From the IMG/VR virus record IMGVR_UViG_3300028394_000086, positions 1 to 58,473 of that record: a stretch of 58,473 nucleotides of DNA; one strand, written 5' to 3'. Positions 9,842 to 43,321 of this stretch are shown in pieces. The notes under the pieces were generated by a model, which did no database searches, was not told where the DNA came from, and saw only the letters and a program-made list of their open reading frames with translations. The stretch is from a virus. The translations under genes and the position numbers were made by a program. Positions within the stretch are counted from its first letter, which is position 1; every line of letters begins with the position of its first letter.

Positions 9842-9881
9842 GTTTTTATAACATTAGTTGAAATCAATAAGGAGAACTAAC

Positions 9882-11273
9882 ATGCAATCTCTGAATGAAC
9901 AAGTTCAGAAAAAGTGGCAGCCAGTCCTGGAGCATAATGACCTTGCTCCAATTCAGGACGCGCATCGCCGCTCAGTAGTAGCACAGCTTCTAGAAAATCA
10001 GGAAAAGTCTGCTCGCGAACAAGGTTTTGGATCTGGTGGTTACCAGGCTCCATCACTACTAGGTGAAACAGCTCCAACAAACGCTATGGGTGCTTCGTCA
10101 TCTTCAGCCGCAGCTGGTTCTATCGACACATTTGATCCAGTGCTTATCTCATTGGTTCGTCGTTCTATGCCTAACCTAATTGCGTATGATATCTGCGGCG
10201 TTCAGCCAATGACAGGTCCAACAGGACTTATCTTTGCAATGCGTTCACGTTACACATCACAGACTGGCACAGAAGCTCTCTTCAACGAGGCTAACACAAC
10301 CTTCTCTGCATCTGCTAAGGGTAATACAGCATCTTCATTCGTTGTTGCTAACACCTCAGTACGTTCACAGTCTGGTTCTGATCCAACTGGTCGTGTTACA
10401 GCCGGTGCTGCTGGCTATAACATGTCAACAGGTATGACTACTGCTCGTGCAGAAGCTCTTGGTGACGGTCGTGGTAACGATTTCCAGGAAATGGCATTCA
10501 GCATTGAGAAGGTTGCTGTAACCGCAGTTAGCCGCGCTCTCAAGGCAGAATACACAATGGAACTTGCACAGGATCTTAAGGCCATTCACGGTCTTGACGC
10601 TGAGCAGGAACTATCAAACATTCTTGCTGCTGAAATCCTTGCTGAAATCAACCGTGAAGTTGTTCGTACAATCAACTACACTGCTACAGCCGGCGCTCAG
10701 GAAAACGTAACTTCAACTGGTACGTTTAACCTAGACGTTGACTCTAACGGTCGTTGGATGGTAGAAAAGTTCAAGGGGCTATTGTTCCAGATTGAACGCG
10801 AAGCTAACCAAATTGCCAAGGCAACTCGTCGTGGTAAGGGTAACGTAATCATCTGCGGTTCTGACGTAGCTTCGGCTCTTCAGATGGCAGGCGTTCTTGA
10901 TTACACTCCAGCTCTTGCAAACAATCTAAACGTGGACGACACAGGCAATACCTTCGCTGGTGTTCTTGGTGGTCGTATCAAGGTTTACATTGATCCATAC
11001 TTCTCTTCTGCATCTGGTAAGCAGTATTTCACAATCGGCTATAAGGGCTCTTCAGCATTCGACGCTGGTCTGTTCTATTGCCCATACGTACCACTTCAGA
11101 TGGTTCGTGCGGTTGGTGAAAACACCTTCCAGCCAAAGATCGGCTTCAAGACTCGTTACGGAATGGTTGCAAACCCATTTGCAACGACAGATGCCACTGG
11201 TGCTATCGGTGCGTTCGGCGATGCCCGCGCAAACCTTTACTACCGCTTTGTGCAGGTCACAAACCTTATGTAA
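9882..11273 (+). CDS. 23: Major capsid protein gp23
   Basis: 463 aa. Start ATG 9882 follows AAGGAG; a longer reading from TTG 9858 would run through that ribosome site and is rejected. The N-terminal propeptide ends at a gp21-type site, SLLGE|TAPTN, near residue 62, comparable to the cut at residue 65 in T4. Typical capsid stretches include FDPVLISLVRRSMPNLIAYDICGVQPM, TGLIFAMRSRY and the C-terminal GFKTRYGMVANPF. It assembles hexamers of the head. A weak late-box variant (TATAACAT) lies at 9847 and a double-hairpin terminator region follows. Confidence 0.96.
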   Translation: MQSLNEQVQKKWQPVLEHNDLAPIQDAHRRSVVAQLLENQEKSAREQGFGSGGYQAPSLLGETAPTNAMGASSSSAAAGSIDTFDPVLISLVRRSMPNLIAYDICGVQPMTGPTGLIFAMRSRYTSQTGTEALFNEANTTFSASAKGNTASSFVVANTSVRSQSGSDPTGRVTAGAAGYNMSTGMTTARAEALGDGRGNDFQEMAFSIEKVAVTAVSRALKAEYTMELAQDLKAIHGLDAEQELSNILAAEILAEINREVVRTINYTATAGAQENVTSTGTFNLDVDSNGRWMVEKFKGLLFQIEREANQIAKATRRGKGNVIICGSDVASALQMAGVLDYTPALANNLNVDDTGNTFAGVLGGRIKVYIDPYFSSASGKQYFTIGYKGSSAFDAGLFYCPYVPLQMVRAVGENTFQPKIGFKTRYGMVANPFATTDATGAIGAFGDARANLYYRFVQVTNLM

Positions 11274-11275
11274 TA

Positions 11276-11301
11276 AAAACCTCGCTGATTCAAAGGCGAG
11301 G
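11276..11301 (-). terminator. Leftward intrinsic terminator
   Basis: CCTCGC and GCGAGG pair across a 10-nt loop (11280-11301). On the + strand no T-run follows, but AAAAA precedes the stem, so read leftward it is a stem followed by TTTTT. It would end a minus-strand transcript from the promoter at 11945-11973. Confidence 0.6.
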
Positions 11302-11330
11302 CAATACAAGACGGGTTCAAACCGCAAACT

Positions 11331-11358
11331 GGGAGGGCAGAAATGCTCTCCCTTTTTT
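11331..11358 (+). terminator. Intrinsic terminator after gp23
   Basis: GGGAGGGCA and TGCTCTCCC pair (one G-T pair) around a GAAA-type loop and are followed by TTTTTT. It ends the capsid transcript just before the next late promoter. Confidence 0.88.
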
Positions 11359-11360
11359 AT

Positions 11361-11368
11361 TATAAATA
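11361..11368 (+). promoter_or_regulatory. Late promoter giving a leaderless mRNA
   Basis: Exact TATAAATA. With the T4 late spacing (box at -13 to -6) +1 falls at 11374, which is the A of the start codon of the next gene. Confidence 0.8.
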
Positions 11369-11373
11369 GTCGT

Positions 11374-11919
11374 ATGTCAGTATATCAGAATCAACCAGAT
11401 AACATCAATATGCTCGGGCAAAATGGTTTTCAGTTTGCTATCAAGCGACTGCCAACCGTGAACTATTTTGCTCAAGCTGTTTCTATTCCAGCCATCTCTA
11501 TGAATGCTATTGAGTCACCAACTCCATTTGCGTTTGTACCACGCCCAGGAGATAGATTGACTTATGATCCATTGTCTGTTACATTTAAGGTTGATGAGGA
11601 TCTAAAGAACTATTTTGAAATTCAGAAGTGGCTTGTTGGTCTTGGGCACCCTGACGATCTTGGGCAGACACGCGACCTATCAAAAGACATTCGTAATAAC
11701 TCAGTTGGTTTTAGACCAGTTGGTAATGCAACAACATTCGTATCAGACGCAGTTCTTTCTGTCTTGACCAGTGCTAAGAATTTAAATATCAATATCTTCT
11801 TTTATGATTGCTTCCCAATCTCACTTACAGAACTAGCATTTACGTCTACCAATACAACAATTGATTATCTCGAAGCGACAGCGGTATTCAGATATCGTAA
11901 ATATGCCCTAGACGAGTAA
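11374..11919 (+). CDS. Tail-tube-like virion protein (gp19/gp54-type)
   Basis: 181 aa. The sequence GFQFAIKRLPTVNYFAQAVSIPAISM, RLTYDPLSVTFKVDEDLKNYFEI and the C-terminal beta-strand pattern resemble tube and baseplate-tube proteins of marine and rhizobial T4-like phages. It may be a tube initiator or a second tube-like protein; which one is uncertain. An open frame runs in from within gp23, but the late promoter and terminator place the start at ATG 11374. There is no ribosome site and no room for one, so translation is probably leaderless. Confidence 0.7.
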   Translation: MSVYQNQPDNINMLGQNGFQFAIKRLPTVNYFAQAVSIPAISMNAIESPTPFAFVPRPGDRLTYDPLSVTFKVDEDLKNYFEIQKWLVGLGHPDDLGQTRDLSKDIRNNSVGFRPVGNATTFVSDAVLSVLTSAKNLNINIFFYDCFPISLTELAFTSTNTTIDYLEATAVFRYRKYALDE

Positions 11920-11944
11920 TAGACTGACCCGATACAACATCCTT

Positions 11945-11973
11945 ATTATACCTCAGATATAGTCGTTTGTCAA
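11945..11973 (-). promoter_or_regulatory. Leftward consensus sigma70 promoter (antisense)
   Basis: On the minus strand: TTGACA, 17 nt, TATAAT, a perfect match. It fires against the 3' end of the tail-tube-like gene. The first bases downstream (AAGGATGTTGTA) recur exactly at the second leftward promoter, 43281-43309. Confidence 0.75.
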
Positions 11974-11986
11974 TACAAATAATGCA

Positions 11987-12015
11987 TTGACAAAGCTCAA
12001 ACTTAATGGTATTAT
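11987..12015 (+). promoter_or_regulatory. Early promoter of uvsY, leaderless
   Basis: TTGACA, 17 nt, TATTAT. Six bases separate the -10 box from ATG 12022, so +1 is the A of the start codon. The -35 is only 13 bp from the -35 of the leftward promoter, forming a divergent pair. Confidence 0.85.
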
Positions 12016-12021
12016 ATACAT

Positions 12022-12459
12022 ATGAAACTTGAAGATATCCTTGAGAACTGGTCAAAAGACGCGCTATATGACGATCTTAACCTAGATCGCGATAGCCTCG
12101 CAATCTCTTCCCTTCACGCCAAATATATTCAAATCTTAGCCATTGAAAGGTCGCTTCTGAGATCATGCATGGCTAAGAAAAAAGGTCTGTATAAGGACTT
12201 GCGTGAGTATTACCTTGGTTCACTAAACAATCCCGATGACCTCGAGCGCATGAGCCGTGAACCTTTTCTTCACAAGGTGTTGAAGAATGAGGTTCATAAC
12301 TATGTGGATTCTGATAGCGAATTGATGAAGCTAGACAACCGCATCTCTATGCAGGAAGAAAAGGTAGAGACACTAACCTCAATCATCAAAGCAATTCATC
12401 AGCGTGGTTATGATATCAAGTCCGCTATTGAGTGGAGAAAGTTCACGAATGGATTCTGA
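12022..12459 (+). CDS. uvsY: Recombination mediator UvsY
   Basis: 145 aa (T4: 137 aa). The N-terminus MKLEDILENWSKD matches T4 MRLEDLQEELKKD, which fixes the start, and the helical end (SIIKAIHQRGYDIKSAIEWRKF) matches T4 AIKSRGFAIKHIQDMRAF. UvsY loads UvsX recombinase onto gp32-coated single strands. It heads a uvsY-uvsW-55-47-46 operon, and its end overlaps uvsW by 11 nt. The mRNA is predicted to be leaderless. Confidence 0.9.
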   Translation: MKLEDILENWSKDALYDDLNLDRDSLAISSLHAKYIQILAIERSLLRSCMAKKKGLYKDLREYYLGSLNNPDDLERMSREPFLHKVLKNEVHNYVDSDSELMKLDNRISMQEEKVETLTSIIKAIHQRGYDIKSAIEWRKFTNGF

Positions 12460-42452: not shown

Positions 42453-43256
42453 ATGGCAAATAAAGGTTTACAATTTGAATGGTGCATCTACCATCTCGTA
42501 GCTAAAGTGGATCCTAAAAAATTTGCTAACGATGCAAATGCCAAAACAGCCAAGGCCAATTACGCCACGGCTGATGCAGATGTAAAAAAAGATGCCGAAT
42601 ATGCTATCGTTATGATACAAAAAGCGTATGGTAAAATCAAAGATATCGAAAAAACATCTGGTGGTGGGGTAGAACCGAAAACTGATCTATATATTACATG
42701 CGCTAAGAAAGCAATCAAATGCTCTCTAAAGCATGGTGGTTCTATTCAACTATCATCTGGTGGTATTAAAACGACAGTAAAATTTCTCAATGGTGTATTG
42801 AAGAATGTGTCAAAGAAGCCTGGGTATGACGCTAAAAAAATCAAATCAATAATGTCTGTTCTAGCTGAATTAGATGAGGGATATGGTGATCTTGGGAAAA
42901 TGCGTAGAACACAAGCTGACGTTGTGTTAGGGAAAGCACAGCGATACAATGACCTTCTTCAAAATATTTTAGGATCTGGTAAAAATCCTGTGGTTTCAAA
43001 AGAGTATGAAAAAATAAAATTAGCTATTATTGAAGAAGCGATAACAGGGAAATACACTTTTGGTGCAACATCAAAATTGGCAGCAGATCATATCTTATCC
43101 GACAAAAAACTAGAATTGGTTACACCAGCACTCATCAAAACCGTTTCAGATAAAACTTCAGTTAGAATTAGACTTAAGGGTCGTGGTAAAGAAATGGTTG
43201 CCGGTAAAGAAGTTAGATTGAATGAAGTGGTAGTTAGCTTTGACACTAAAGCGTAG
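42453..43256 (+). CDS. Late protein with nuclease-like EPKTD...SLK motif
   Basis: 267 aa, Lys-rich. The stretch GGVEPKTDLYITCAKKAIKCSLKHGG (D78, K93) resembles the D-(x)n-(S)xK core of restriction-like nucleases seen in some T4-like late proteins. The remainder is helical with a C-terminal beta region. It could be a packaged nuclease; evidence is motif-level only. The 3' end lies under the second leftward promoter's antisense transcript. Confidence 0.55.
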   Translation: MANKGLQFEWCIYHLVAKVDPKKFANDANAKTAKANYATADADVKKDAEYAIVMIQKAYGKIKDIEKTSGGGVEPKTDLYITCAKKAIKCSLKHGGSIQLSSGGIKTTVKFLNGVLKNVSKKPGYDAKKIKSIMSVLAELDEGYGDLGKMRRTQADVVLGKAQRYNDLLQNILGSGKNPVVSKEYEKIKLAIIEEAITGKYTFGATSKLAADHILSDKKLELVTPALIKTVSDKTSVRIRLKGRGKEMVAGKEVRLNEVVVSFDTKA

Positions 43257-43280
43257 TATCTGACCGGTTACAACATCCTT

Positions 43281-43309
43281 ATTATACCATGGAAATATTA
43301 ATTTGTCAA
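43281..43309 (-). promoter_or_regulatory. Second leftward consensus promoter (antisense)
   Basis: Minus strand: TTGACA, 17 nt, TATAAT, then AAGGATGTTGTA, identical to the one at 11945. It points back into the gene at 42453. Its -35 is 4 bp from a rightward late box. Confidence 0.75.
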
Positions 43310-43313
43310 GTAT

Positions 43314-43321
43314 TATAAATA
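43314..43321 (+). promoter_or_regulatory. Late promoter of the ligase-like gene
   Basis: Exact TATAAATA; predicted +1 about 43327, leader about 63 nt ending in AGGAG. Confidence 0.8.

Follow-up and report, generated by a model that had tools for sequence, protein, structure and literature searches.

Leftward promoters with a common start signature at three fixed sites in an uncultured clade of T4-like phages

Introduction

In phage T4, the replication origins are promoters: the RNA made from them forms an R-loop and serves as the primer of leading-strand synthesis, and the formation of these R-loops requires no specific sequence (PMC3016281). T4 oriE uses an early promoter, and the origin R-loops are removed late by UvsW (PMC3016281). 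In the T4 record, the primer RNA of oriG runs opposite to late gene 34, and oriF lies at the 25/uvsY junction. To our knowledge, the T4 origins have no local motif in common.

The present study concerns an uncultured clade of T4-like phages in which leftward promoters occupy three sites, A, B, and C. These promoters resemble T4 oriG, or ori(34), with its promoter P34i, where a noncoding primer RNA is also made opposite a late structural gene of a T4-type phage (PMC2988021). The promoter of oriG is a MotA-dependent middle promoter inside gene 34, whereas the elements described here have the full sigma-70 consensus in an intergenic gap, occupy three sites, have a common start signature, and are candidate origins. 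T4 oriF, or ori(uvsY), likewise has its promoter at uvsY, between this gene and gene 25, the two genes adjoined by sites A and C. However, the oriF primer is the uvsY transcript itself, and the element at site A points away from uvsY. The MotA-dependent middle promoters of oriF and oriG also differ from the present ones in that these carry a full -35 consensus; oriE does not need MotA. Iterons are present at oriE, and none were found at sites A and B.

Early antisense transcripts over structural genes, like those predicted here, are made by the virulent phage PAK_P3 (PMC4933390). PAK_P3 is an unrelated phage in which about 20 such RNAs were seen by RNA-seq, whereas our three promoters were recognized by sequence conservation only. 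CfrI of the cyanophage S-PM2 is also an antisense RNA of a T4-like phage, but it is about 225 nt long and belongs to a different locus, where it lies opposite psbA and a homing endonuclease gene (PMC2984593).

Results

Genomic setting of site A

The DNA analysed is an IMG/VR virus record of 58,473 bases (the window), a fragment of an uncultured T4-like phage. Near site A, the genes for the head scaffolding protein, the major capsid protein, the tail tube, UvsY, and a UvsW-type helicase follow each other rightward, the helicase being encoded two genes right of the site. The features are listed in Table 1. The gene at 11374-11919, called a late gene in the first-pass annotation, was identified as that of a phrog_45 tail tube protein, and its late promoter, TATAAATA, is at 11360. 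Of the T4-type late promoter core, TTATAAATA, the window has 7 copies, all on the plus strand, against 0.78 expected. Inside the window all accepted genes run opposite to the leftward promoter, as had been stated; a few minus-strand gene clusters exist in larger related contigs.

A search of 50,697 phage records turned up no isolate of this clade. In these records the capsid gene had matches of about 70% DNA identity across about 40% of the query, the relatives of the tail tube and UvsY were below 60% protein identity, and the 102-base gap between the tube gene and uvsY, which holds site A, had no match. The window gave no Rfam match and no tRNA or tmRNA.

Table 1. Coordinates of the features at sites A and B in the window
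Feature	Position	Strand	Description
Major capsid protein gene	9858-11273	+	Left of the tail tube gene
Predicted leftward noncoding RNA	11270..11938	-	About 670 nt, antisense to the tail tube gene; predicted from promoter and hairpin only
Hairpin with leftward T-tail	11276..11301	-	Possible leftward terminator; also in the 3' UTR of the capsid mRNA
Tail tube gene	11374..11919	+	phrog_45, T4-type tail tube protein; opposite the predicted site A RNA; TTATAAATA late promoter at 11360-11368
Site A initial transcribed region	11924..11944	-	Predicted start at G 11938 in a TGT/TGTT core; GGGTCAG at 11930..11924
Site A leftward promoter	11945..11973	-	-35 TTGACA 11973..11968, -10 TATAAT 11950..11945, 17-nt spacer; 12/12 match
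Divergent rightward uvsY promoter	11987..12015	+	TTGACA-17-TATTAT, TG ahead of the -10; 11/12 match
uvsY	12022..12459	+	phrog_231, PF11056; right-hand neighbour of site A
Site B initial transcribed signature	43260..43280	-	AAGGATGTTGTAACCGGTCAG; string as at site A
Site B leftward promoter	43281..43309	-	TTGACA-17-TATAAT, 12/12 match; divergent from the late promoter at 43313-43321

Conservation of the leftward promoter at site A

The minus-strand TTGACA-17-TATAAT reported at 11973..11945 is exact, with all 12 positions matching. To assess its conservation, 46 distinct sequences upstream of uvsY were compared, from phages whose UvsY was about 61-99% identical. The results showed that the promoter was kept in 46/46 relatives, with a spacing of 17 in every one. 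TATAAT was intact in 45 of the 46, and the -35 was TTGACA (36) or TTGACG (9). Among 32 representatives of sites A, B, and C, chosen to differ by more than 25%, the hexamers were near maximum information and the middle of the spacer held almost none. In more distant relatives (UvsY about 42-46%), the tube stop codon mostly lies near the uvsY promoter, without the leftward element, and Cr30 and a Stenotrophomonas phage (UvsY identity about 33-39%) have different layouts at uvsY. The divergent uvsY promoter is conserved too, its -10 being more variable than that of the leftward promoter at site A, and the two -35 boxes form an inverted repeat at 11966-11994.

An unused chance match to the promoter consensus is hardly credible. 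Four perfect sites were found in the window against 0.02 expected from shuffles, and a chance origin of the site A promoter is excluded because all 46 relatives retain it while the spacer has diverged. The conservation demonstrates strong selection on the promoters at A, B, and C. We infer that site A is a leftward promoter used by the host sigma-70 RNA polymerase early in infection. Sequence conservation strongly supports one part of the first-pass annotation, a selected leftward promoter whose RNA, if made, must be antisense to the tail tube gene.

Three sites with one start signature

Comparison of related contigs showed that the clade has three leftward promoters in fixed positions, among them that of site A. 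Site A lies before uvsY, site B before the DUF6267 gene, and site C, outside the window, before gene 25. In each of two long relatives, G001 (154.7 kb) and G002 (157.6 kb), the intergenic leftward promoters of near-consensus sequence and 17-nt spacing number exactly three, namely A, B, and C. In G003, sites A and C are present; site B was not found in this shorter contig. Sites C and B were also confirmed in further relatives. In the window, site B is 82% identical to site A across 50 bases (43309..43260), with the transcript start included. The right-hand gene of B is a homologue of the window 43387 gene (DUF6267, PF19782), and site B is conserved in 9 relatives of this gene. At sites B and C, the distance from the leftward -35 to the beginning of a late promoter is between a few bases and about 20. 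L163 and L164 fall outside the main clade, and in L164 the gene 25 homologue is preceded by a perfect leftward TTGACA-16-TATAAT whose start region differs; this promoter is possibly independent of the A/B/C family.

By the same comparison, an initial transcribed signature of about 20 nt is common to the three sites. Most have a TGT core at the predicted start, which at site A was placed at 11938 by its distance to the -10, and a GGTCA-type motif about 8-14 nt into the RNA (TGT...GGTCA). The string of site A recurs at 43260-43286, where none is expected by chance. In the window, the motif is found in both leftward promoters and in 0 of 16 rightward promoters of at least 10/12. Viral contigs scanned for promoter plus motif, with the neighbours ignored, gave 77 hits, and 41 of these adjoin uvsY, gene 25, or the B gene. 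The flank of another hit, L285, resembles a further site B. About 20 hits, judged by their similarity in sequence to examples in G002 and G003, look like a single sense early promoter that serves a 130-aa gene, and the remaining hits belong to other phages, some of them unrelated. In bacterial genomes the signature pattern gave 41 hits, nearly all in Clostridia with consensus-like promoters; they were taken as background and were not each traced.

The sense early promoter was located at 110160-110214 in G002 and at 12328-12381 in G003. It precedes a conserved 130-aa gene with a weak phrog_4593 match, its start region is TGT...GGGGTCAG, and the signature there overlaps the likely ribosome-binding site. 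L225, L261, L266, L279, and similar phage contigs carry a repeated promoter, TGTGTATAATGACTCTGTT..GGGTCAG, in two copies in some contigs; these are apparently a separate promoter family.

In many relatives a short perfect inverted repeat surrounds the predicted leftward start (11933-11944 in the window). Both arms vary, as in GAAC-TGT-GTTC, GAATT-TGT-AATTC, GGAT-GTT-ATCC, and CTGTG-TTA-CACAG. Arms of at least 4 were found in 11/32 representatives, where column-permuted controls averaged 3.0 (maximum 8 in 500 permutations), and arms of at least 5 in 6/32, where the controls averaged 0.5 (maximum 3); the representatives are related, so these counts do not give a strict probability. A 5' hairpin of the leftward RNA was rejected, since the left arm is upstream of the predicted start. 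For the same reason, the palindrome could be either a structure of the DNA around the start or a hairpin in which the late mRNA, transcribed rightward, ends.

The leftward RNA and the hairpin in the capsid 3' UTR

The statement that the leftward RNA holds no convincing ORF agrees with our search, in which no minus-strand ORF of at least 60 aa was found within 11328-11940. The terminator that had been matched to the promoter is as described in structure, but its T-tail is lost in most relatives. In this phage the minus strand reads GCCTCGC-10 nt-GCGAGGT and then TTTTATT, at about -10 kcal/mol, so that hairpin and T-tail are both present. Among the 22 relatives with the capsid-tube junction, the hairpin was kept in 18 and the T-tail was usable, by a lenient test, in 9; L033 has a strong hairpin without a T-tail. 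Another gene stands at the capsid-tube position in 6/28 distinct relatives (window included). Minus-strand terminator-like sites have a background of about 0.4 per kb, leftward terminators are not enriched, and no consistent leftward terminator was found downstream of sites B and C. Because the stem varies in sequence and yet stays paired, the hairpin looks more like an RNA structure of the capsid mRNA 3' UTR than a conserved leftward terminator. It could end the leftward RNA in this phage.

The structured 3' UTR of the capsid gene spans 11277-11352 and contains, in order, this hairpin, a nearly invariant motif GACGG(G/T)TTCAA(A/G)CCGCAAACTGGG at 11310-11333, a strong rightward terminator at 11331-11352, and then the tube late promoter.

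Genes behind the promoters

At site A, the tube gene is behind the promoter in 43/43 relatives with enough upstream sequence. At site B, the window and three relatives have a gene for a phrog_22045 protein of 267 aa behind the promoter; in G001, L206, and L207, the gene behind codes for a protein of 274, 400, and 266 aa, respectively, with no similarity detected to the 267-aa protein, and in G002, G006, L208, and L209 there are ORFs of 34-48 aa. At site C, the gene behind codes in some relatives for a PAAR protein of 97 aa and in others for a protein of about 470-626 aa that is unrelated to it. At each exchange the promoter and the first 20 nt are retained, and reach the stop codon of the new gene. 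The gene left of B (42453-43256 in the window) is swapped in L201-L209 although the right-hand gene is at least 95% identical, and this gene-swap spot stops at the leftward element.

Synonymous diversity in the tube gene was 0.78-1.02 of expectation, with no constraint and no dip near the promoter. This even diversity shows no trace of a sequence-specific element that overlaps the gene outside the promoter region, and nothing is conserved after about +20 of the leftward RNA. The exchanged targets and the even tube diversity indicate that selection acts on the promoter with its start region, whereas none is visible on the gene that is read through or on the length or end of the RNA. Leftward transcription itself seems to be under selection. 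The persistence of the promoters at A, B, and C across gene swaps suggests that transcription as such, perhaps as a way to start DNA replication, matters more there than the silencing of one tail gene. The earlier proposal of a defined 0.66-kb antisense RNA that silences the tube gene was not borne out: the terminator is not conserved, the targets at B and C are exchanged, and the tube gene lacks synonymous constraint. Interference with the tube gene at site A itself may occur, the tube being the constant neighbour there.

Discussion

We tentatively favour, without holding it more likely than not, the possibility that A, B, and C are R-loop primer promoters, and would thus be transcription-dependent replication origins like T4 oriF, oriG, and oriE. 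Early in infection, A, B, and C would yield noncoding leftward RNAs that work in cis through transcription itself. The nascent RNA would stay paired to the template as an R-loop and prime leftward leading-strand synthesis. Later, a UvsW-type helicase and the switch to late transcription would shut off the three promoters, and the antisense cover of the tail tube gene would be a by-product. Rather doubtful is the further claim that they form a sequence-defined set of dispersed origins, each with an early sigma-70 promoter and a start signature of about 20 nt, at fixed places and in one orientation, for which the read-through gene is irrelevant.

We lean to origins because the promoter is conserved upstream of uvsY in 46/46 relatives, because exactly three intergenic leftward sites exist in each of two long relatives, and because the promoters are kept at B and C despite exchange of the gene behind. 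The tube gene is unconstrained, as expected if R-loops need no specific sequence (PMC3016281), and sites A and C adjoin uvsY and gene 25, the genes that flank T4 oriF. The presence of gp59 (3/3 contigs), T4-type RNase H (2/3), and a UvsW-type helicase also argues for origins. MotA was not detected in G001-G003, while the T4 positive control was detected; T4 oriE has an early promoter, and one would be expected here as well. Against origins, plain and fourfold-site GC skew showed no switch at the sites, although a skew switch is not a required origin feature, being seen near some T4 origins and not at oriA or oriC, and sites A and B have no iterons. The first 100 nt downstream of the sites, at percentiles of about 7-71, were not consistently AT-rich or unstable and gave no clear unwinding element. 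T4 oriG, the control, was unremarkable by the same measure, and duplex stability was set aside as an uninformative test for an unwinding element. Also against origins, the start signature is not a T4 origin feature, and a similar one is present at the sense early promoter in relatives.

The main rival, a broader form of the first-pass proposal, is early antisense control, in which leftward transcription interferes with leaked rightward late transcripts behind A, B, and C, or its RNA pairs with them, and expression is delayed until the late switch. A strong consensus early promoter facing a late gene, the constancy of the tube gene at A, and the plausible leftward terminator of this phage all fit it, and PAK_P3 provides a precedent, with 15/20 antisense RNAs in the structural region, stronger early (PMC4933390). 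However, the poor conservation of the terminator, the limit of three sites per genome in long relatives, and the exchange of the genes behind B and C, even for small ORFs, while the promoter stays, make this control unlikely on balance. A role of the leftward promoter in tuning the right-hand gene's promoter (uvsY early at A; late at B and C), through polymerase occupancy, supercoiling, or a block to read-through from the left, would explain why it travels with the right-hand gene and not the left-hand one. The inverted repeat of the two -35 boxes at A and the closeness of the late promoters to the -35 at B and C are in keeping with such divergent or insulator action. We consider it improbable, because the right-hand promoters are of different classes and because the signature is inside the leftward transcript, where it should be irrelevant to a rightward promoter. 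Quite improbable is a short regulatory RNA or leader that is defined by 15-20 conserved nt at its start (GU..GGGGUCAG) and either acts in trans or titrates a binding protein. It would account for an initial signature common to three antisense sites and the sense early promoter in relatives, but conservation ends at about +20, no terminator lies near +20 to +100 at any site, and Rfam gave no match.

What was a single suspected antisense promoter is now a family of three sites, conserved within an uncultured T4-like clade, and offers a concrete target for mutation. If A, B, and C are interference promoters, the act of transcription, and not the target of the RNA, would be what is selected. If they are origins, the sequence of such phages would suffice to annotate where replication starts, which the motif-less origins of T4 do not permit.
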